Shown here: in pieces, positions 10,798 through 21,785 of the stretch | Layout of the letters: the number at the start of each line of letters is the position of its first letter | Position numbering within the stretch: the first letter of the stretch is position 1 | Notes under the pieces: generated by a model | Seen by the model: the letters and a program-made list of their open reading frames with translations, nothing else | What the model was told of the DNA's origin: nothing | Databases searched by the model: none | Made by a program: the position numbers and the translations under genes | DNA from: Solidesulfovibrio carbinolicus | GTDB lineage: Bacteria; Desulfobacterota; Desulfovibrionia; Desulfovibrionales; Desulfovibrionaceae | Assembly (NCBI RefSeq): GCF_004135975.1 | Contig: NZ_CP026538.1 | Coordinates: 248,001 to 312,000, forward strand | Direction of reading: 5' to 3' | Length of the DNA stretch: 64,000 bases

Positions 10798-13700
10798 ATG
10801 ACAAAATGTAATACGAACCAGCCCCTCCCCCCATCCAGGGGGTCCGGGGGGGATGATCCCCCCCGGCGGGTCCAGGGCAGAGCCCTGGTCTTCCTCTATC
10901 TCATCCCCCTCGCCATCGTCGCGGCCTTCGCGCTGCTCTCCTGGCGCGGCATCCTTTGGACGCCGGGGCATGTCTACCAGAACTGGGACCGGGTGCCGAC
11001 GCCCTACGCCGAGGAGATGCGCCAAGTCGCCGACATCTCCAAGCACGCCTGGGCCTCCAAGTACGACATGGGCGCGCCGGGCGCGTTTTCCGGCATCACC
11101 CGCTGGTTCGACCTCGTCACCCGCGACGCCGGGTCATACCTGGGCGGCCCCTTTATCGTGCGCTGGGAAGGCCCGGTCTATGCCGTGGCCGGGGCCGGCG
11201 GCGTGGCCGTGCTGTGTCGCCTCTTGGGCCTGGGGCTGTGGCCCACGGTCTTGGCCGCCATGGTCTTTGCCTTCAATCCGCGCCAGTTTTCCATGGCCGT
11301 GGCCGGCCATGTGGAAGAGAGCGGTTTTGCCCTGGCCATCGTCCCTTGGGTGCTGGCCTTGCTCTTTCGGGCGGCGGCCGATCCGTCCGCGCGCCGGTTT
11401 CTCGCCTGTACGCTGACAGCCGGTCTGCTTGGGGCCTTGGCCTGCTCGGCCTCACCCTTTGGCATCGTGTTTTATGGCTCGTTCACCGCACTTTTCACCC
11501 TCGGCCAGACCGTCGCCCGGCGAAGCTGGCGTCCGGCCCTGGCCTTTGCCCTGGCCGGCGGCGTGGCGCTCTTTCTCCATCTGCACTGGCTGGTTCCGGC
11601 GGCCAGCTCCATCATCCACGCCGCCGATTTCAAGCATCACCAGACCAAGGAAGAGATCAACGACCATTACCAGGGCATTTATCGCCGCTATTCCGCGCCG
11701 CTTCGCCAAGCCATGCTCGGCCACACCGACAATTATGGCATGGGCACGGAATACGCCTATCCGGTAACGCTCAAAGACAACCCCGAGTGGGTGGCCGCGG
11801 CCCTGGCCTTGCTCGGGCTGGCGATTCTCGGCGGCTTTGGCCGCGTGCCGAACAGAGGCATCAAATATTTCGCCGCCTTGTGCCTGCTCATGGGCTTTAT
11901 CTGTCTGGCCGGCAACAAGACGCTCGCCGGCGCGGTGTTTTACGAGAAGTTTTTAAACCGCGTGCCGATCCTGTTTTTCCAGATGGCCCGGCCGGCCCGC
12001 TGGCTGCCGGTCTATTATTTCGGCTTGGCCCTGCTGGCCGGCCTGGGGTTGGCCCGGCTTTTGGAATGGAGCAAGGGCAGCCGCCTCAACCGGGCCACGA
12101 CCCTGGCCTTTGGGGCCGCCGTCCTGGTCGTCTACCTGCACCCCTACTGGACCGGCCAGTTGACCCGGCCTCAGAACGCCACCTCCCAGACCATGGCCAT
12201 GATGCCCCAGCCGCTGTCCCCGGCCGAGGGCACCCTCTCGAAATATTTCACCAATGACCCCGACGACTACCGGGTGACGGTCTGGCCCACCATCGCCGGT
12301 CCCACCGGCGACGTGCCCGAACCGCCGAACAACGGGCTGACCCGCAATTTCGCCCTGCTCGGCAAGGACGGCATCATCGGCCCCACCTACATCGGTGAAC
12401 CCTACAGCATGTACCTGCTTGGGCTTTTGCACCGGCCCTGGCCGGTCACCGACGCCTTTGGCCGGCTGCTGGGGCTGGCCGCCGTCAAACGGGTCGTCTA
12501 CAACCAGACCAACCCCTATCTGTCCTATGGCTCGTTTGGCTGGATGCCGACCACCAAGCGCGGGCCGGAAACGCTGTTCGATCCCGGCGATTTGATTGGC
12601 CCCTTCATCGCCGCCCAGCGCGATCTGGTGGTCGATCCCGACCTGGCCGCGCCGCCTGAAGCCGTGCTTCGCAACACCGACTTCCTGCCGCGCCTGCGCC
12701 TGACCCAGGGGGCGCGTCTGGCCGCCGGCGGTTTTCCGCTGCTGTTGTCCCTGGCCAACGCCAGCCGGCCCCAGTGGGCCGACGAGGCGCTGTTCTTCGG
12801 GGCCGACGTCACCGAGGCCGAACTCAAAACGCTGGGACCGGGTTTTGGCGGCCTGACCGTGGCCGGCGGGGCCACGCCCGAACTGCTGCTGCCGTTCCTG
12901 CCGGCCGACGCCTACCAGGGAGCGGCGTCAGCCACCCTGGAAGGCGCGTTCGGGCCGTTGGCCCCCCGCCAGCTTGACGATCCTCGTCATGGCGGCTCGG
13001 TGCTGGAAAAGGCCGCCCGCATAAGCGAAGGTCCGGGCGTGGCCCGGTTTGCGCTGATCGGCCACGGGACCCTACACCTGTTCCTGCGGGCCGGGGCCGA
13101 GAGCTTTGCCGGCACGGCCAAGGTGAGCCTCGACGGCGCGCCCGTGGCCGAGCTGGCCGCCGGCCCCCTGGGGCGCGGCATCGACTGGATCGACTGCGGC
13201 ACGGCCACTTTCGAGCCGGGACCGCCCCATGAGCTGGCCGTGGAAATTCCCGGCCGGGGCGTCATCGTCTCGGGGCTCCTTGCCGTGCCCGAGGAAGCTT
13301 ACGCTGACGCCCGGGGCCAACTGGCCGCCCTGGCCGGCGGCAAGGTCCGGGTGGTGGCCGAGGCCGAGGAAGCAACCGAAGCGCCGGTCTCGCCCATGGC
13401 CCCCAAGCTTTTCGTGCCGCTTTTGGCCCAGGGCGCGGACGTGACCGTGACCAGCGAAAACGCCCGTCTCGATCTCGCCGACCCGCGCGGGGCCGGGGTG
13501 GTGGCCGTGGAAGGCGACGCTCCGGGCGAGGTGGTCTATACCGTGCGCTTCCCCGAGCCGGTTGCGGGGCTGACGCTGGAAAGCTATCCGCGCCTTTTCG
13601 GCGACAAGGTCCAGACGTCCTACGTGGCGGCCTCGGCCTCCGTGGACGGCGGCCCGTCCAAGCTCCTGTACCGGGTGGAGGGGAGCCGTGACGACCGCTG

Positions 13701-14490
13701 GGAGGACGTCTACAAGCGCCGCATGGTTTCCGAGATCAAGGGGCCGGCCACCACCGTCACCATCCGCTTCGCCATGCGCCAGGCCCAGCTGTCTTCCCAG
13801 GTCAATTCCCCCAACCAGCCCATGCGGCTGGTGGCCGACACCCCCGTTCCCGGCCGGGCCGTGCTGTCCTTTGGCGCGGCGGCCCGGCTGCCGGCCACCC
13901 TGGCCGTGGCCGTGCCCGTGGCCGGGGACTACGCCGCCACCTTGCGGCTGGTGGGCAAGGCCGGGGACACGGTCAAACTGCCGGACGGCCGTTCGGTGGT
14001 CCTGACCAAGGACGGCCGCAATGACGTCCCGACCGGGACGGCGCGGCCCGGAGCCGACGGCTTGGTCCGTTTGGCCCTTGACGGGCCGGCCACCGTGGCC
14101 TGCGACGCCGTGGAGCTGACCCTGGGCGAGACAGGCGGCCCGGTTGCCGGCGCGGACATTGCCTACAAGCGCCAAAACGCTGGCCGCTACGACCTGACCT
14201 TGCCGGCTGGCGGCGGCTTTCTGGTTTTCTCCGAAGCTTTTCACCCCGGCTGGGGGCTGGCGATCGGAGGCAAGTCGTTGACCCCGCTTAAAGGTCTGGG
14301 ATTTATCAATGTCTACAATCTGCCGTCCGGCGCGTCCGGCCCGGCCGAGCTGCTTTATCGTGACGAGGCCATCATGGCCAGGCTCGTGCCCGTCATGAAC
14401 GCCGGCTGGATCGTGCTGACGCTAATGACCCTGGCTCTTTTCGTGCCGGACCTGCTGCCCGGCCGGCGAAAGCACCCCCGGGCCGATTGA
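10798..14490 (+). CDS. GT-C-type membrane glycosyltransferase, AftD-like
   Basis: 1230 residues. The N-terminal ~460 residues carry about 10 membrane segments with GT-C features, including an early loop with acidic residues (HVYQNWDRVPTPYAEEM) and a later KFLNRVPILFFQMARPARW. The remaining ~750 residues are beta-rich carbohydrate-binding-like modules. A last domain holds FSEAFHPGWGLAI near residue 1145 and one terminal membrane helix. The build (polytopic GT-C then large soluble region) resembles mycobacterial AftD arabinofuranosyltransferase and YfhO-type proteins; that comparison is from memory. The start is uncertain: no good Shine-Dalgarno precedes ATG 10798, and codons ~14-31 come from a class B repeat. 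Confidence 0.7.
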   Translation: MTKCNTNQPLPPSRGSGGDDPPRRVQGRALVFLYLIPLAIVAAFALLSWRGILWTPGHVYQNWDRVPTPYAEEMRQVADISKHAWASKYDMGAPGAFSGITRWFDLVTRDAGSYLGGPFIVRWEGPVYAVAGAGGVAVLCRLLGLGLWPTVLAAMVFAFNPRQFSMAVAGHVEESGFALAIVPWVLALLFRAAADPSARRFLACTLTAGLLGALACSASPFGIVFYGSFTALFTLGQTVARRSWRPALAFALAGGVALFLHLHWLVPAASSIIHAADFKHHQTKEEINDHYQGIYRRYSAPLRQAMLGHTDNYGMGTEYAYPVTLKDNPEWVAAALALLGLAILGGFGRVPNRGIKYFAALCLLMGFICLAGNKTLAGAVFYEKFLNRVPILFFQMARPARWLPVYYFGLALLAGLGLARLLEWSKGSRLNRATTLAFGAAVLVVYLHPYWTGQLTRPQNATSQTMAMMPQPLSPAEGTLSKYFTNDPDDYRVTVWPTIAGPTGDVPEPPNNGLTRNFALLGKDGIIGPTYIGEPYSMYLLGLLHRPWPVTDAFGRLLGLAAVKRVVYNQTNPYLSYGSFGWMPTTKRGPETLFDPGDLIGPFIAAQRDLVVDPDLAAPPEAVLRNTDFLPRLRLTQGARLAAGGFPLLLSLANASRPQWADEALFFGADVTEAELKTLGPGFGGLTVAGGATPELLLPFLPADAYQGAASATLEGAFGPLAPRQLDDPRHGGSVLEKAARISEGPGVARFALIGHGTLHLFLRAGAESFAGTAKVSLDGAPVAELAAGPLGRGIDWIDCGTATFEPGPPHELAVEIPGRGVIVSGLLAVPEEAYADARGQLAALAGGKVRVVAEAEEATEAPVSPMAPKLFVPLLAQGADVTVTSENARLDLADPRGAGVVAVEGDAPGEVVYTVRFPEPVAGLTLESYPRLFGDKVQTSYVAASASVDGGPSKLLYRVEGSRDDRWEDVYKRRMVSEIKGPATTVTIRFAMRQAQLSSQVNSPNQPMRLVADTPVPGRAVLSFGAAARLPATLAVAVPVAGDYAATLRLVGKAGDTVKLPDGRSVVLTKDGRNDVPTGTARPGADGLVRLALDGPATVACDAVELTLGETGGPVAGADIAYKRQNAGRYDLTLPAGGGFLVFSEAFHPGWGLAIGGKSLTPLKGLGFINVYNLPSGASGPAELLYRDEAIMARLVPVMNAGWIVLTLMTLALFVPDLLPGRRKHPRAD
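10838..10888 (-). repeat. Class B two-hairpin repeat inside the 5' end of a CDS
   Basis: Contains GGGGTCC, a GGGGGG/CCCCCC hairpin around GATGAT, the GGCGGGT linker, then CCAGGGC-AGA-GCCCTGG. The same layout is seen at 29793, 30869 and 48653. Here it encodes residues ~14-31 of the AftD-like protein. Confidence 0.7.
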
Positions 14491-14546
14491 AGCCCGGGGC
14501 GATCCCGGCTATGGTCCGGCCTCCCGGCGAGGCCGGTTGGAGCGCT

Positions 14547-15455
14547 ATGCCGAAAACCACGTCGCGGACCGCCGCCTACCTGAAGCTGGCCCGGCCGCAC
14601 CAGTACGTCAAAAACGCCTTTGTCTTCCTGCCGCTGTTTTTTGGCTGGAAGCTCACCGACCCGGCGGCGCTGTGGAGCGCCTGCCTGGCCTTTGCCGCGT
14701 TCTGTCTGGCCGCCAGCGCCGTCTATGTCGTCAATGACTTAAAAGACGTCGAGGAAGACCGGGCCCATCCCACCAAGCGCAACCGCCCCCTGGCCTCGGG
14801 CGCGCTGACCCCGGGGCAGGGCCTGCGGTTCGCCGGCGTGCTTCTGGCCGGCGCGGCCGGTCTGACCCTCGTTCTGGGGTCGGGCGGCTTTGCCGCCATC
14901 CTGGCCGGCTATCTCGTCATTAACGCCCTCTACAGCTTTGCCCTCAAGCACAAGGCGCTCATTGATCTGGCCTGCATTGCCGTGGGCTTTGTGCTGCGGG
15001 TGTTCGCCGGCGGCGTGGTCACGGCCGTGACCCCCAGCCATTGGATCGTGCTCATGACGTTCCTGCTGGCGCTGTTTCTCGGCTTTGCCAAGCGCCGCGA
15101 CGACCTGCTGCTGTCGGCCGCCGGCTGCGAGAAAACGCGGCGGTCGCTCGACGGCTACAACCTGGAGTTCGTCTCGGCCTCCATGATCATCATGGCGGCG
15201 GTTGTCATCGTGAGCTACATCCTCTACACGCTTTCCCCCGAGGTCATCGCCAAGCATGGCTCGGACAAGCTGTACCTGACCGCCATTTTCGTCATCCTCG
15301 GCGTCCTGCGCTACTTGCAGATTACCCTGGTCGAGTGCAAAAGCGGTTCACCGACCCTGGTGCTGTTGCGCGACGGCTTCATCCAGGCCTCCCTGGGGCT
15401 GTGGATCGTCAGCTTTTACCTTATCCTCTATGTGGAGCGTGTCCGGAATCCATGA
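14547..15455 (+). CDS. UbiA-family polyprenyl-phosphate phosphoribosyltransferase (DPPR synthase-like)
   Basis: 302 residues from ATG 14547, preceded by GGAG; earlier in-frame TTG (14487) and ATG (14511) have no ribosome site. It is a polytopic UbiA-fold protein. The Mg/pyrophosphate motif is N63-D64-x2-D67-x3-D71 (VVNDLKDVEED), followed by RAHPTKRNRPLASG, the pattern of decaprenyl-phosphate 5-phosphoribosyltransferases. Such enzymes move phosphoribose from PRPP to a polyprenyl phosphate, the first step to lipid-linked ribose or arabinose donors. It follows the AftD-like gene and overlaps the radical SAM-SDR gene by 4 bp. Confidence 0.85.
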   Translation: MPKTTSRTAAYLKLARPHQYVKNAFVFLPLFFGWKLTDPAALWSACLAFAAFCLAASAVYVVNDLKDVEEDRAHPTKRNRPLASGALTPGQGLRFAGVLLAGAAGLTLVLGSGGFAAILAGYLVINALYSFALKHKALIDLACIAVGFVLRVFAGGVVTAVTPSHWIVLMTFLLALFLGFAKRRDDLLLSAAGCEKTRRSLDGYNLEFVSASMIIMAAVVIVSYILYTLSPEVIAKHGSDKLYLTAIFVILGVLRYLQITLVECKSGSPTLVLLRDGFIQASLGLWIVSFYLILYVERVRNP

Positions 15456-17665
15456 AGAAAATCATGCTGTTCTATCCGCCGGGGCGGTTTTACCAGCGCG
15501 GCGAGGACCGTTCCCAGGGCAACGTGGAGCAGTCCACGGCCACGTCCATGCGCGCGCCCAACGACCTGGGCTACGCCGCCGCCACCCTCAAGCAGGAAGG
15601 GTTTGCCGTTTTCCTGCGCGACTACCAGACCGAGCGCTGCGCCCCGGCCGATCTGCTGGCCGATTTCGACCGCGAGGCCCCGGACGGCATCTTCGTCAGC
15701 ATCACCAACTCTACCATTTTCAACGATCTGACCCTGGTGCGGCAGCTGAAGGCCAAAAAGCCCGACCTTCTGGTCATGCTCAAGGGTGCGATCTTCTTTG
15801 ACCCCGACGAGGCGCTCCTGGCCCAGCTCGATCTGGCCGACGTCACCTACCTGATCGGCCTGGAATCCGACTTCATCGTCGGCAAGCTCGCCAAGGCCCA
15901 TTTCGACGCTCCGGCCGGCGTGCCGGCCATTCGCGGCATCCTCTTTAAAAAGGACGGCGTCTGGACCAAGACCGACTTCGCCTCCTGGGAGACCGACCTC
16001 GACAGCCTGCCGTTTCCCGACCGTAGCCTGATCAAAAACGCCCTCTACGTGCGCCCCGACACCGGCGAACCCCAGGCCACCATCGCCACCTCGCGCGGCT
16101 GCCCCTCAGCCTGCATCTTCTGCATGACCCCGAAGATTTCCGGCAAAAAGCTGCGCCTGCGCTCGCCGGAAAACATTCTGGCCGAACTCACCGACTGCTA
16201 CGCCAACCACGGCATCCGCGACTTCTTCTTCAAGTCCGACACCTTCACCTTTGACCCGACCTGGACCCAGGCCGTGTGCCAGGCCATCCTTGCTTCCCCC
16301 CTGGCCGGCAAGATCCGCTGGGTGGCCAACTCCAAGGTCAAGCCCCTGGACAAGGACACGCTGGTCCTCATGAAAAAGGCCGGTTGCTGGCTGGTGGCCT
16401 TTGGCTACGAGTCGGGCAGCCCGGAAACGCTGTCGCGCATCCACAAGAACACAACAACCAACGACAACCTTCAGGCCACCAAATGGGCCAAGGAAGCGGG
16501 GCTGCTCACCTTCGGCTTCTTCCTCATCGGCCTGCCCTGGGAAACCAGGGAACACCTCGAAGCCACGCGTCAGCACATCTTCGAGCTGGACAACGATTTC
16601 CTGGAACTCCACATCGCCATTCCCTATTACGGCACCCGGCTCAATGAAATCGCCCGCGAAGAGGGGCTTTTGCCCGGCTCGGTCCTGGGCAAGGACTATT
16701 TCAACGCCCCAACCGTCGGCACGAGCACGCTCTCCATGGAAGAAATCGAGGCCTTCCGCAAAAAAACGCTCCTCGATTTCCACCTGCGCCCGTCCTACAT
16801 CACCCGCAAGCTCGTCCAGGCCGGCGGCAACCCCAAAATCATCGCCAACTACGCCCGCTTCGGCCTGCGGCTGCTCAAAAACACCCTCATGCCGCCCAAG
16901 CGCCCGCGCGCTTTGACCCCGGACGGCACGCCGCCCCACGTTGCCATTCTCGGCGCCAATTCCGACATCGCCCTGGCCCTGGCCCGCCAGCTGGCCGCGC
17001 AGGACCACGCCTCCCTGGTGCTGGCCTCCCGCGACCAGGATCGGCTCAATGTCGCCGCCGTGGATCTGGCCAAGGATTGCGACACGGACGTCAGCGTGCG
17101 CCATTTCGACGCCCTGGATTTCGCCGGCCACGCCGCCTTTTTCGATTCCCTGGACCCCATGCCCGACGTCCTGGTCCTGGCCTTCGGGCTGCTCGGCGAC
17201 CAGCAGTCCGGCCAGCGCGATTTCGCCGCCGCCCGCGCGGTCATCGACACCAACTTCACCGCCGCCGCCTCCGTCCTCGAAATCGCCGCCGACCGCTTCG
17301 CCAAGCGCGGCCACGGCACCATCGTCGGCCTGACCTCCCCGGCCGGCGAGCGCGGCCGCAAGAGCAACTACCTCTACGGCGCGGCCAAGGCCGGGCTGAC
17401 CACGCTGCTTTCCGGCCTGCGCCACCGCCTGGCCGGCACAGGCGTGCGCGTCGTCACCGTCATCCCCGGCTGGACCAAGACCCGCATGACCGCCGCCGCG
17501 CCCACCCCCGCGCGCCTTACCGCCTCGCCCGAACGCGTGGCCGGCGACATCCGCAAAGCCCTTCACGGCAAGGGCGACGTCCTCTATACCCCGTGGTTCT
17601 GGCGGCCCATCATGGCCCTGGTGCGCGCGCTCCCCGAAAAACTCTTCGTCAAAACGAATCTCTAA
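15452..17665 (+). CDS. Fusion: B12-binding-type radical SAM enzyme + SDR oxidoreductase
   Basis: 737 residues from ATG 15452 (ATGA overlap with the UbiA gene). Residues ~1-160 look like a cobalamin-binding-type domain (KKIMLFYPPGRFYQRGEDRS; ADLLADFDREAPDGIFVSIT). The radical SAM domain carries C217-x3-C221-x2-C224 (GCPSACIFC) and runs to about residue 440. After a linker, residues ~496-737 are a short-chain dehydrogenase with VAILGANSDIALALARQL and the catalytic pair Y642-x3-K646 (YLYGAAK). The SDR half looks like DprE2-type 2-keto-pentose reductases, which suits the UbiA neighbour. The fusion is unusual. Substrate is inferred only. Confidence 0.8.
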   Translation: MKKIMLFYPPGRFYQRGEDRSQGNVEQSTATSMRAPNDLGYAAATLKQEGFAVFLRDYQTERCAPADLLADFDREAPDGIFVSITNSTIFNDLTLVRQLKAKKPDLLVMLKGAIFFDPDEALLAQLDLADVTYLIGLESDFIVGKLAKAHFDAPAGVPAIRGILFKKDGVWTKTDFASWETDLDSLPFPDRSLIKNALYVRPDTGEPQATIATSRGCPSACIFCMTPKISGKKLRLRSPENILAELTDCYANHGIRDFFFKSDTFTFDPTWTQAVCQAILASPLAGKIRWVANSKVKPLDKDTLVLMKKAGCWLVAFGYESGSPETLSRIHKNTTTNDNLQATKWAKEAGLLTFGFFLIGLPWETREHLEATRQHIFELDNDFLELHIAIPYYGTRLNEIAREEGLLPGSVLGKDYFNAPTVGTSTLSMEEIEAFRKKTLLDFHLRPSYITRKLVQAGGNPKIIANYARFGLRLLKNTLMPPKRPRALTPDGTPPHVAILGANSDIALALARQLAAQDHASLVLASRDQDRLNVAAVDLAKDCDTDVSVRHFDALDFAGHAAFFDSLDPMPDVLVLAFGLLGDQQSGQRDFAAARAVIDTNFTAAASVLEIAADRFAKRGHGTIVGLTSPAGERGRKSNYLYGAAKAGLTTLLSGLRHRLAGTGVRVVTVIPGWTKTRMTAAAPTPARLTASPERVAGDIRKALHGKGDVLYTPWFWRPIMALVRALPEKLFVKTNL

Positions 17666-18837
17666 TGAACATACTCTTCCTCAATCACAATCCCGAGCGC
17701 TACGGCACCTACTTCCGCTGCTACCACCTGGGGCGGCATCTGGCTGATCGCGGCCACAACGTGACCTTGGTGTGCGCCTCCCGCGAGGCCACCCTGCGCA
17801 CCACCGAACGCAAGGAAGGCGGCTTGCGCATCCGCTTCCTGCCGCGCGTCAACCTGGCCACCTACCACACCGGCCATACCCTGCGGATGTTGCTCAACAC
17901 CCACGAATGTCTGCGCACGCCCATGGACATTCTGCACAGCTTCGCCTTTCCGCTGCATCCCATCAGCTTCCCCACGCTGGTGACCAGCATCCTCAAGCCC
18001 CAGGTCAAGATCGTGCTGGACCACGACGACATGTGGAAAGGCGGCTTTATTGACCAGCACCCCGGCCCGGTGCGGCTGCTCTACAACTTCACCGAGGACC
18101 AGTTGCCGCGCATCGCCGACCAGGCCACCGCCGCCAGCGACATCCTCATCGGCAAATTCCGCGACGCCGGCCTGCCAGCCGACAAGATCCACTATATCCC
18201 CAACTGCCCAACCATCCGCCTGGACATGCCGCCCAAGCACGAGGCTCGGGCCGCCCTGGGGCTGGCCCCGGACGACAAAGTGCTGCTCTCCATGGGCCAC
18301 ACCTACACCGAATCGCTTTTTGCGCTGCTCGACGCCTACACCGCCGCCCGCGAGACCCTGCCGGGCCTCAAGCTTCTGTTCCTCGGCAAGATGCACATCT
18401 CCGACGACTTCAAGGCCCGCATGAAGCCCTATGAGGAGCGCTTCGCCCCGGACATCGTCAAGATCGGCGAAAAGCCGCCCACCGACGTGCCGCGCTATCT
18501 GGCCGCCGCCGACGCGCTGCTTCTGCCCATGGACGACGACCCCATCGAAAAGGCCCGCTTCCCCATCCGCTTCGGCGACTATCTCGCCTCGGGCGTGCCC
18601 GTGGTCTCCAACGCCGTGGGCGAAATCAAACGCATCATGGAGTCCCGCGACTGCGGTTACACCGCGCCCGTGGGCAACGCCGCCGCCTTCGGCCGGGCCA
18701 TCGTCACCGCCCTCACCGACGAGGCCGGCCGGCAGCGCAAACGTGAAAACGCCAGACGCCTCATCGCCGAAGAACTCAACTGGCCCGCCGTGGCCGCGCG
18801 CCTCGAAGCCGTCTACGAAAAGACGCTCGGCGAATAA
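17665..18837 (+). CDS. GT4-like glycosyltransferase
   Basis: 390 residues. ATG 17665 shares one base with the preceding TAA. The N-terminal Rossmann domain begins MNILFLNHNPERYGTYFRCY; the C-terminal donor domain has VLLSMGHTYTESLFALLDAY, LLFLGKMHISDDFKARMK and DYLASGVPVVSNAVGEIKRI with the conserved acidic site. It probably uses a nucleotide sugar in the cytoplasm for the polysaccharide made by this operon. Last gene before the repeat nest. Confidence 0.85.
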   Translation: MNILFLNHNPERYGTYFRCYHLGRHLADRGHNVTLVCASREATLRTTERKEGGLRIRFLPRVNLATYHTGHTLRMLLNTHECLRTPMDILHSFAFPLHPISFPTLVTSILKPQVKIVLDHDDMWKGGFIDQHPGPVRLLYNFTEDQLPRIADQATAASDILIGKFRDAGLPADKIHYIPNCPTIRLDMPPKHEARAALGLAPDDKVLLSMGHTYTESLFALLDAYTAARETLPGLKLLFLGKMHISDDFKARMKPYEERFAPDIVKIGEKPPTDVPRYLAAADALLLPMDDDPIEKARFPIRFGDYLASGVPVVSNAVGEIKRIMESRDCGYTAPVGNAAAFGRAIVTALTDEAGRQRKRENARRLIAEELNWPAVAARLEAVYEKTLGE

Positions 18838-18839
18838 CC

Positions 18840-18980
18840 GGGTCCAGGGCGCTGCCCTGGACCCGGCAGGGCGCTGTCCTGCACCCGCTGGGACGCTGTC
18901 CCAGACCCTGCCAGGGCGCTGCCCTGGACCCGGCAGGACGCTGTCCTGCACCTGCCAGGGCGCTGCCCTGGACCCGCCGG
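18840..18980 (+). repeat. Six-unit tandem hairpin array, 22-23 bp period
   Basis: Six units, each a 6-bp stem around GCT, with GCT at 18851, 18873, 18895, 18918, 18940 and 18962. Arms change together: CAGGGC/GCCCTG, TGGGAC/GTCCCA, CAGGAC/GTCCTG. One unit has a G-T pair. Units are separated by ACCC plus a few bases, and the array ends in a GGGGGG/CCCCCC hairpin (18978-19000). Confidence 0.85.
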
Positions 18981-19068
18981 GGGGATAATCCCCCCGGACC
19001 CCCTGATTGTCTGCGGCGGGCGGGCGAGCCGACAGGGGGGCCGGGAGGTGTCGGCGGACGCCGAAGAA

Positions 19069-19330: not shown

Positions 19331-20515
19331 ATGCGTATATTCGTGCCGGCGATGGGGCGGGTGAACACGAAGAATCGGGACGGCAGCGAGGTCAGGTTCG
19401 CCGAGATCGCCAAGCGGTGGCTGGCGGCCGGCGTGAAGCTGGAGCTGTTGTTGCCGCGCCGGGAGATCGGCGTGCTGGAGTCCCAGGGCGTGCGCGCTTC
19501 CTGGCGCGTGCATTGGGAGCCTTTTACCAGCGAATCCGACCGGCTGTGGAACGTGCTGGCCGTGTATTTGTGGCGGATGCTGACCTGTCCGCTGGCGCGG
19601 TATCCCAAAGGCGTGGACGCGGTTTACGCGCCGTCGGACTTCTTGTTCGACTTGCTGCCGGCGCTCTTGTGCCGTTGGCGCAATCCGGCGGCCAGGCTCG
19701 TCGTGTGCGTGTTTCTCATCGCCCCCAACCCCTTTAAGGGCTACGAGAACGTCTTTGGCGGCAAGTGGAAGCTGCCGTCGGTGCGCGGGGTGCTCTATTA
19801 CTGCGCCCAGTGGTTGAGCGTCTGGTTGGCACGAAAAAATGGCGCGACCATGCTCGTGCTCAATTCCCTGGACAAGGATTCGCTGATCGCCATGGGCGCG
19901 GACCCGGCCACGGTGCATGTGGTGACCATGGGCGTGGACGCCGGCTTTTTCGACGGCGTGGACGCGGCGGCCGACACGCCGCGCTATGACGGCATTTTCC
20001 TGGGCCGGCTGCATCCCCAAAAGGGGCTTTTCGATCTGGTGCGCATCTGGAAGCGGGTGTGCGAGAAGCGTCCCGGCAGCCGCCTTGGGGTCATCGGCGG
20101 CGGCAGCGATTGGTGGTTTGGCAAGCTCAAGCAGGAGATCGCGGCGGCCGGGCTGACCGGCCAGGTCGATTTGCTCGGGTTTCGTCAGGGTGAGGACAAG
20201 GTGCGGCTGTTAAAGGCCGCCGGCGTGTTCCTCATGCCCAGCCACTACGAGAGCTTCGGCCAGGTGGCCGTGGAGGCCATGGCCAGCGGTCTGCCGGTGG
20301 TGGCCTACGATCTGCCGATTTATCGAGAGATTTTCCCCACCGGCATGATCAAGACGGCCCTGGAGGACGAGGCGTCGTTTGCCGCCGAGGTGTTGTCCCT
20401 GCTGGCTGACCCGGCCCGCCGCGAGGCCGCCGTGGCGCAGGCCCGGGCCCGCGCCGCCGTCTTCGACTGGGCGGCCATCGCCGAGCGCGAAATGGGGTTT
20501 GTGACGCAGCGGTAG
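19331..20515 (+). CDS. GT4 glycosyltransferase
   Basis: 394 residues; ATG 19331 follows AAGGA. GT-B fold: RIFVPAMGRVNTKNRDGSE at the N-terminus, a donor domain with YDGIFLGRLHPQKGLFDLV, and the diagnostic MPSHYESFGQVAVEAMASGL then PVVAYDLP, in which E-x7-E binds the nucleotide sugar. It is a cytoplasmic retaining transferase, probably for the same polysaccharide as the upstream operon, but separated from it by the 493-bp repeat nest. It converges on the Fic gene. Confidence 0.88.
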   Translation: MRIFVPAMGRVNTKNRDGSEVRFAEIAKRWLAAGVKLELLLPRREIGVLESQGVRASWRVHWEPFTSESDRLWNVLAVYLWRMLTCPLARYPKGVDAVYAPSDFLFDLLPALLCRWRNPAARLVVCVFLIAPNPFKGYENVFGGKWKLPSVRGVLYYCAQWLSVWLARKNGATMLVLNSLDKDSLIAMGADPATVHVVTMGVDAGFFDGVDAAADTPRYDGIFLGRLHPQKGLFDLVRIWKRVCEKRPGSRLGVIGGGSDWWFGKLKQEIAAAGLTGQVDLLGFRQGEDKVRLLKAAGVFLMPSHYESFGQVAVEAMASGLPVVAYDLPIYREIFPTGMIKTALEDEASFAAEVLSLLADPARREAAVAQARARAAVFDWAAIAEREMGFVTQR

Positions 20516-20630: not shown

Positions 20631-21785
20631 CTAACGGGCGTCGTCGATGAGCCGGTAGCGGGTGCCCGTTTTACAGATCAGCCCGAGGCGTTCCAGATTC
20701 TTGATGTCGCGCCGGATCGTTTTGTCGCTGACCTGTCGATAGAGCAGCGTAAACGGACTTGTCTGCCTGAGATCGTGGCTGTCAAACGCCGTGTCGCCGG
20801 CGGCCAGGAGCAGTTCGATGAGCTGATGCTGGCGCGGGGAAATCTCTCGGGTCTGGTTCTTGAGATACGCGACATAGTCGCGATAGAGCAGCGGTTTGAC
20901 CCCCGCCACGAGGCGCTCCCGGAGTTCTTCCAGGCCGGCGCGCAGGGAACGGCAATAGAAATCCAGGAACGGCTGCACGCTGTCGTCCGTGCTGTGTTCC
21001 GATTTCGAGAACGCGATGTAATAGTCGTGGATGTCGCGGTAATAGGCGTTCCAAAGTATGCTCGGTATATGCCGATAGCCGGCCGCCGCCAGGATCATGG
21101 CCTCGATCATGCGGGCCGTGCGCCCATTGCCGTCCCGGAAGGGATGGATTTTCGCCAGATGGTAATGCGCCAGGGCCGCCCGAATGACCGGATCGGTCAG
21201 CAAGAGCGCCTCGCCGTTTATCCAATCCACGAACGCCGCCATGAGCGTCTTGATGTCTTCCAGAATTTTCGGGGGCACATAGGTGCCGCCATGTTCCGGG
21301 TTGCCGACTTGCACGGGCGTGTTGCGATACAGTCCCGGTGAGATGGACGCGTCGTTGACGCCGATAGTGATGGCGGCGTGGACTGCCTTGATAATACCCT
21401 CGCTGAGCAGAAAGGGTTTGGCATTCTTGGCTTTATTGGTAGCGAGGATGAACTTGTCGTGGGTAGCCTTGAGATTGAGGATTTCCCGCTCGAAATCGTT
21501 GGCGGCCGTTGTCGAACCTTCTTTTTCCAGCAAAGCGCCCACAGCCTTTTCGTCCAGGGGATTGCCTTCCAGCGCCGCCGTGCTGAAGATGGACTTGCGG
21601 ATCAGGTCGGCGTCGAGAAACGCCGCCAGATGCGGCGGTGTCGGCAATGAGGCGATGATGTCGTAGCAGGCGTGGAAGACCTTGAGTTCGGTAGCGATGT
21701 TGTCTTGATCGAAGCGGCGGGAGAAGACGAAATTGCCGGACTTGAACGTCAGGACCTTGTGGATTTCCTGGGCTGTCGTGGGCAT
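20631..21785 (-). CDS. Fic family protein with autoinhibitory helix and winged-helix tail
   Basis: 384 residues. The complete catalytic Fic motif HPFRDGNGRTAR is at residues 214-225, so AMP-transferase activity is plausible. An N-terminal inhibitory motif T69-AAL-E73-G74 (within STAALEGN) marks a class II Fic protein whose Glu blocks ATP until released. The C-terminal ~80 residues (TLLYRQVSDKTIRRDIKNLE) look like a winged helix, suggesting DNA binding or autoregulation. Codon use is visibly less GC-rich than in neighbours, hinting at transfer. It stands alone. Confidence 0.88.
   Translation of the reverse strand: MPTTAQEIHKVLTFKSGNFVFSRRFDQDNIATELKVFHACYDIIASLPTPPHLAAFLDADLIRKSIFSTAALEGNPLDEKAVGALLEKEGSTTAANDFEREILNLKATHDKFILATNKAKNAKPFLLSEGIIKAVHAAITIGVNDASISPGLYRNTPVQVGNPEHGGTYVPPKILEDIKTLMAAFVDWINGEALLLTDPVIRAALAHYHLAKIHPFRDGNGRTARMIEAMILAAAGYRHIPSILWNAYYRDIHDYYIAFSKSEHSTDDSVQPFLDFYCRSLRAGLEELRERLVAGVKPLLYRDYVAYLKNQTREISPRQHQLIELLLAAGDTAFDSHDLRQTSPFTLLYRQVSDKTIRRDIKNLERLGLICKTGTRYRLIDDAR

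Follow-up and report, generated by a model that had tools for sequence, protein, structure and literature searches.

In bacteria the recognised route to lipid-linked D-arabinofuranose runs through DPPR synthase, DprE1 and DprE2, and anti-tuberculosis agents of the benzothiazinone type act on DprE1. How might a lipid-linked pentose be made by a bacterium that has relatives of the first and third of these enzymes and no DprE1? This question is raised by a 64,000-nucleotide stretch of DNA from the sulfate-reducing bacterium Solidesulfovibrio carbinolicus (NZ_CP026538.1, positions 248,001 to 312,000 of the forward strand; the window). Here a UbiA-family gene, ubiA, is followed by a gene that fuses a radical S-adenosylmethionine (SAM) domain to a short-chain dehydrogenase/reductase (SDR). 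The radical SAM domain stands where DprE1 stands in the operons of relatives, and may act in its stead.

As the initial annotation had proposed, UbiA belongs by its sequence to the DPPR synthase family. It scores 76 bits against PF01040 and passes two DPPR synthase models, NF008977 (decaprenyl-phosphate phosphoribosyltransferase; 251 bits, cut-off 234) and NF008978 (213.7 bits, cut-off 207). The best solved relative is the mycobacterial DPPR synthase 8j8j (E 2e-33). The motif NDxxDxxxD is intact from residue 63 (N63, D64, D67 and D71), and in loop IV the arginine is kept and the glutamate replaced by aspartate. The same motif, in loop II, is required for the activity of ORF15 of Citrobacter (PMC11127046). 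A chlorophyll, heme or quinone synthase is ruled out, as those models all give less than 50 bits; nor does the protein group with chlorophyll or quinone synthases.

The fusion itself was read correctly at the outset, with a Radical_SAM domain at residues 213-374 and an SDR domain at residues 496-737, and the resemblance then seen between the SDR half and DprE2 is borne out by profile, tree and residues. The SDR half passes model NF005489 (275 bits, cut-off 267), as do all other fused SDRs and every DprE1-adjacent SDR tested, from Desulfovibrionales, Acidobacteria and Halomonadaceae. It falls under the actinobacterial DprE2 model NF053786 (196.6 bits, cut-off 250), and the DprE1-adjacent Gram-negative DprE2s likewise fall under that cut-off (167-212 bits). 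NF005489, a model without a functional name, contains the Gram-negative DprE2. Membership in it is not alone proof of DprE2 function, because DprE1 is lacking in six of the 41 genomes whose DprE2-family SDR is unfused (the other 35 have it). Beside the DprE2-family SDRs of DprE1-less genomes another partner in the DprE1 position was looked for and none was found. The SDRs of loci L124, L125, L126, L127, L136 and L137, at or near NF005489, are in genomes without DprE1 and, where tested, mostly without UbiA. The SDR half of the fusion keeps N601, S629, Y642 and K646 and nearly all positions that are invariant across DprE1-adjacent DprE2s; it departs from them most clearly at lysine 671 and serine 644.

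The fusion operon shares its descent with the UbiA-DprE1-DprE2 operon, which is the canonical gene order in its relatives. A tree of 73 SDRs places the fused ones in a single clade (Shimodaira-Hasegawa-like approximate likelihood ratio test 93), nested with moderate supports among the DprE1-adjacent DprE2s, beside those of genomes G251 and G542. In the UbiA tree the fusion-adjacent proteins are likewise a single clade (97/94), which falls within a larger one (99/99) of DprE1-operon UbiAs, mostly of the Desulfovibrionaceae, and the two trees agree. The simplest reading of these sequences is that the fusion operon arose once, from an ancestral UbiA-DprE1-DprE2 operon in which DprE1 disappeared and DprE2 acquired a fused radical SAM domain. 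Between the two genera that carry the fusion, the radical SAM halves are ~74% identical and the SDR halves ~52%. The original suggestion of a lipid-pentose pathway with another kind of oxidation or epimerisation gains strength from the relatives, in which DprE1 lies exactly where the radical SAM domain sits here. An in-place exchange within the genus was considered and rejected. Genome G101, of the window's genus and without the fusion, has a canonical cluster (L116) of HAD-UbiA, DprE1, DprE2 and a PMT_2 GT-C protein, but its surroundings differ and it is not an empty-site comparison.

DprE1 is absent from the window genome, an absence first noted from the window and now extended genome-wide by profile search. 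There is no PF04030 (ALO-domain) protein, and the best match to the DprE1 model NF053785 is partial, at 42.5 bits. A hidden DprE1 elsewhere in the genome is ruled out, since the FAD_binding_4 genes match DprE1 only weakly, N-terminally and partially. DprE1 is missing from all 13 fusion genomes tested (best match 65 bits, partial); intact DprE1s of other genomes score 318-479 bits, those of G251 and G101 418-421 bits.

The window genome measures 4.69 Mb, and the relatives that reach 96-97% identity to it are assemblies of S. magneticus. The genomes surveyed are partly draft. Among 348 genomes of the class the full-length fusion is present in 17, namely 12 of the 14 from the window's genus and five from a second genus. 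A search of these 348 genomes at E 1e-60 gave no free-standing ortholog of the radical SAM domain, and the next radical SAM matches beyond the fusions are ~33% identical. Within the Desulfovibrionales, UbiA is found in 37 of 297 genomes; of these 37, DprE1 occurs in 17 and the fusion in 13, with no genome having both and seven having neither. Each of the 13 fusion genomes has exactly one UbiA and one DprE2-family SDR over the cut-off, the fused one. At least one of the seven genomes with neither, G240 of the Desulfovibrionaceae, has a UbiA gene followed by genes for a HAD phosphatase, an EamA-type transporter and a 532-residue protein without a Pfam match (L149:8830-12285); this locus has the look of a full three-component glycosylation system for ribose only. 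Two archaeal loci, L019 and L022, were not accepted as the same system, as some kilobases, occupied by other genes, separate UbiA from the related radical SAM gene in them.

The radical SAM half has the cluster motif CX3CX2C (C217, C221 and C224). There are no auxiliary-cluster cysteines C-terminal to the barrel, and this half has no cysteine at all past C312, so that a BtrN/SPASM-type dehydrogenase with an auxiliary Fe-S cluster is ruled out. Residues 13-41 (15488-15574), FYQRGEDRSQGNVE.STAT.MRAPNDLGY, are nearly invariant among the fusions and unlike the relatives, and are modelled with low confidence; they are possibly involved in substrate binding. Structures were compared using a good predicted model, with a mean predicted local distance difference test score (pLDDT) of 87.8. 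No solved DprE2 was among the matches listed in the VIA-align structure comparison.

The large membrane protein of 1230 residues encoded upstream of ubiA has N-terminal helices, a beta-rich C-terminal half and a last helix. The window protein has no Pfam match; its ortholog in L011 passes PF10131 PTPS_related (31.1 bits, cut-off 26.4), which we take to be a family of the GT-C clan. On these sequence grounds the protein is probably of the GT-C type. The initial annotation had gone further and called it AftD-type, a label that finds no backing in sequence or structure: there is no profile match to solved chains, and the predicted model (pLDDT 39.6) is too poor for a fold comparison. Its gene adjoins ubiA both in genomes of the window's genus and in two of the second genus (G137 and G183), and does so even where the fusion lies elsewhere; this linkage favours a common pathway for the membrane protein and UbiA. 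A strict link is weakened by full-length orthologs (G134:C27 and G135:C5) in genomes without UbiA or the fusion.

As to the substrate, reaction and product of the fusion, we infer, tentatively and with somewhat less than even confidence, that the radical SAM half oxidises a lipid-linked ribose at C2 in DprE1's stead and that the SDR half completes the epimerisation to arabinose. The product of the operon would be a polyprenyl-phosphate-linked pentofuranose for a surface glycan. The 5-phosphate of the UbiA product would be removed by a phosphatase presumably encoded elsewhere. A 5'-deoxyadenosyl radical would then take a hydrogen off C2 of the ribose, and the resulting hydroxyalkyl radical would be oxidised to the 2-ketone, as DesII does on TDP-quinovose. 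The fused DprE2-type SDR, with NAD(P)H, would reduce the ketone from the other face, giving polyprenyl-phospho-arabinofuranose, which a membrane glycosyltransferase would consume. A 2-ketone role is favoured for the radical SAM half by its place in the operon, by the DprE2 ancestry of the SDR and by the lack of DprE1. When DesII oxidises a sugar alcohol to the ketone, the electron goes to the enzyme's own [4Fe-4S] cluster, and DesII shows that small differences decide between elimination and oxidation (PMC11434129).

Several points weigh against this proposal. First, AprD4, the solved structure nearest to the radical SAM half, is a diol dehydratase and not an oxidase. Second, position 671 of the SDR is lysine in 43 of 48 DprE2s and isoleucine, leucine or threonine in the fused SDRs. 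Third, no phosphatase or flippase gene is seen in the operon (the rest of the genome was not searched for either). Fourth, the GT-C type of the 1230-residue protein was not found in the DprE1-bearing genomes tested, and for this reason the final sugar may differ. Finally, anaerobic life alone does not explain the exchange, because many genomes of this largely anaerobic order keep DprE1.

A serious alternative, though we think it rather unlikely, is a deoxygenation. An AprD4-type radical dehydration of the ribose 2,3-diol would give a deoxy-ketone, and reduction by the DprE2-type SDR would give polyprenyl-phospho-deoxypentofuranose. AprD4 (6fd2) is the top solved structure for the radical SAM half both by sequence (E 4e-28) and by fold (Z 33.3, root-mean-square deviation 2.8, 413 residues, 23% identity), and points to deoxygenation as much as to epimerisation; the required 2,3-diol is available on ribose. 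AprD4 dehydrates a sugar diol and passes the product to a separate NADPH-dependent partner reductase, AprD3 (PMC5461906), and here a radical SAM domain and a reductase share one polypeptide. Against this, the fusion reaches 114 bits on the AprD4 family model NF033070, far from its cut-off of 500, and the cluster motif is CX3CX3C in AprD4 as against CX3CX2C in the fusion. In addition, barrel residues common to AprD4 and the wider family are changed in the fusions (D262S, R295K and D297K), and the SDR is a DprE2 by descent. We know of no polyprenyl-phospho-deoxypentofuranose that serves as a sugar donor or surface sugar. Oxidation and deoxygenation require the same SDR step.

It is improbable that the fusion remodels or methylates the sugar, by an HpnJ-like ring contraction or a cobalamin-dependent C-methylation leading to an unusual branched or carbocyclic donor. 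HpnJ (TIGR03471) is the best-scoring named radical SAM family and acts on a lipid-bound glucosamine (PMC12583986), the second fold match is MgmA, a glutamine methylase (Z 30.0), and a B12-binding Rossmann domain is borderline (32.4 bits, cut-off 32.1). Yet the HpnJ score of 168.8 bits is far under the cut-off of 577.6, and the domain occupies the position of DprE1 beside a DprE2-family SDR. A direct radical epimerisation, in which the radical SAM half alone would invert C2 or C3, a cysteine donating the hydrogen, and the SDR would be auxiliary or act on a second centre, we consider quite improbable as well. Radical SAM epimerases with a cysteine hydrogen donor exist, and C249, mostly leucine in relatives, is invariant in the fusions, as are C276 and C312; but the SDR half is fused with its catalytic residues kept, which argues for production of a ketone. 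That the fusion is unrelated to the UbiA product and its neighbourhood incidental is very unlikely: although fusion and ubiA lie some kilobases apart in G137 and G183 and slightly apart in G202, UbiA is present in every fusion genome tested, genomes G094, G134 and G135 lack both, and the gene trees of UbiA and the SDR agree.

The genes are listed in Table 1. The membrane protein gene, ubiA, the fusion gene and the first GT4 gene keep the positions first annotated, and all four are conserved across species. In loci read from both genera the first GT4 gene adjoins the fusion. The second GT4 gene is probably a separate transcript. The gap between the two contains short G+C-rich tandem repeats at 18844-18982, with 22-bp and 67-bp units of the palindromic CAGGGCGCTGCCCTG type. 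The second GT4 gene is followed immediately by a gene on the minus strand (20631-21785) for a Fic/DOC family protein with a DeoR-type helix-turn-helix.

Table 1. Genes and domains of the fusion operon and the adjoining GT4 gene, in window coordinates
Feature	Position	Strand	Basis
Large membrane protein, 1230 aa, probable GT-C glycosyltransferase	10798..14490	+	Ortholog L011 passes PF10131
ubiA, polyprenyl-phosphate phosphoribosyltransferase (DPPR synthase family), 302 aa	14547..15455	+	NF008977, 8j8j, NDxxDxxxD, tree
Radical SAM-SDR fusion gene, 737 aa	15452-17665	+	Overlaps ubiA stop
Radical SAM half of fusion, residues 1-490: B12-type Rossmann and radical SAM barrel	15452..16921	+	AprD4 6fd2 nearest structure
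SDR half of fusion, residues 491-737, DprE2 family	16922..17665	+	NF005489, tree, residue table
GT4-type glycosyltransferase, conserved next gene	17665..18837	+	Pfam Glycos_transf_1
Second GT4-type glycosyltransferase, conserved neighbour	19331..20515	+	Pfam Glycos_transf_1; downstream in L012, L013, L118, L119, L121

If the proposed oxidation is true, an unrelated radical SAM enzyme in DprE1's place within the operon would be a non-flavin solution to this step; if the deoxygenation is true, the operon would be a route to a lipid-linked deoxypentose. No paper reporting either a radical SAM replacement of DprE1 or a lipid-linked deoxypentose route was found in the open-access literature, subscription papers being outside the search. 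The fusion is a single protein and allows a direct test of the reaction. Farnesyl-phosphate ribose works as a substrate analogue of the pathway (PMC11127046).

Among known systems, DesII, a deaminase and dehydrogenase, is a precedent for conversion of a sugar hydroxyl to a ketone (PMC11434129), though its substrate and sequence differ and it is a mechanistic model only. HpnJ, of hopanoid cyclitol ether formation, also acts on a lipid-bound sugar, and no hopanoid genes are among the neighbouring genes scanned. The AprD4/AprD3 pair is alike in the radical SAM fold and in the pairing with a reductase; it differs in family score, cluster motif and barrel residues, as given above, and the fusion has a DprE2-derived SDR and a presumed lipid-linked substrate. 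Pathways through polyprenyl-phosphate ribose that include epimerases are described in Citrobacter and other relatives (PMC11127046). With the three-component pentofuranose systems of Citrobacter youngae O1/O2 the operon has in common a UbiA-type polyprenyl-phosphoribose synthase, a probable GT-C protein and a sugar-modifying SDR. It differs from them in that neither a phosphatase domain nor a flippase is seen in the window operon, and in that the modifier is a radical SAM-SDR fusion here and an SDR epimerase alone there. The DPPR synthase and DprE1/DprE2 systems of mycobacteria and Gram-negative operons share with the window operon the UbiA family, the DprE2-type SDR, the gene order and common descent; where they have the flavin adenine dinucleotide-dependent oxidase DprE1, a radical SAM domain is fused to the SDR.

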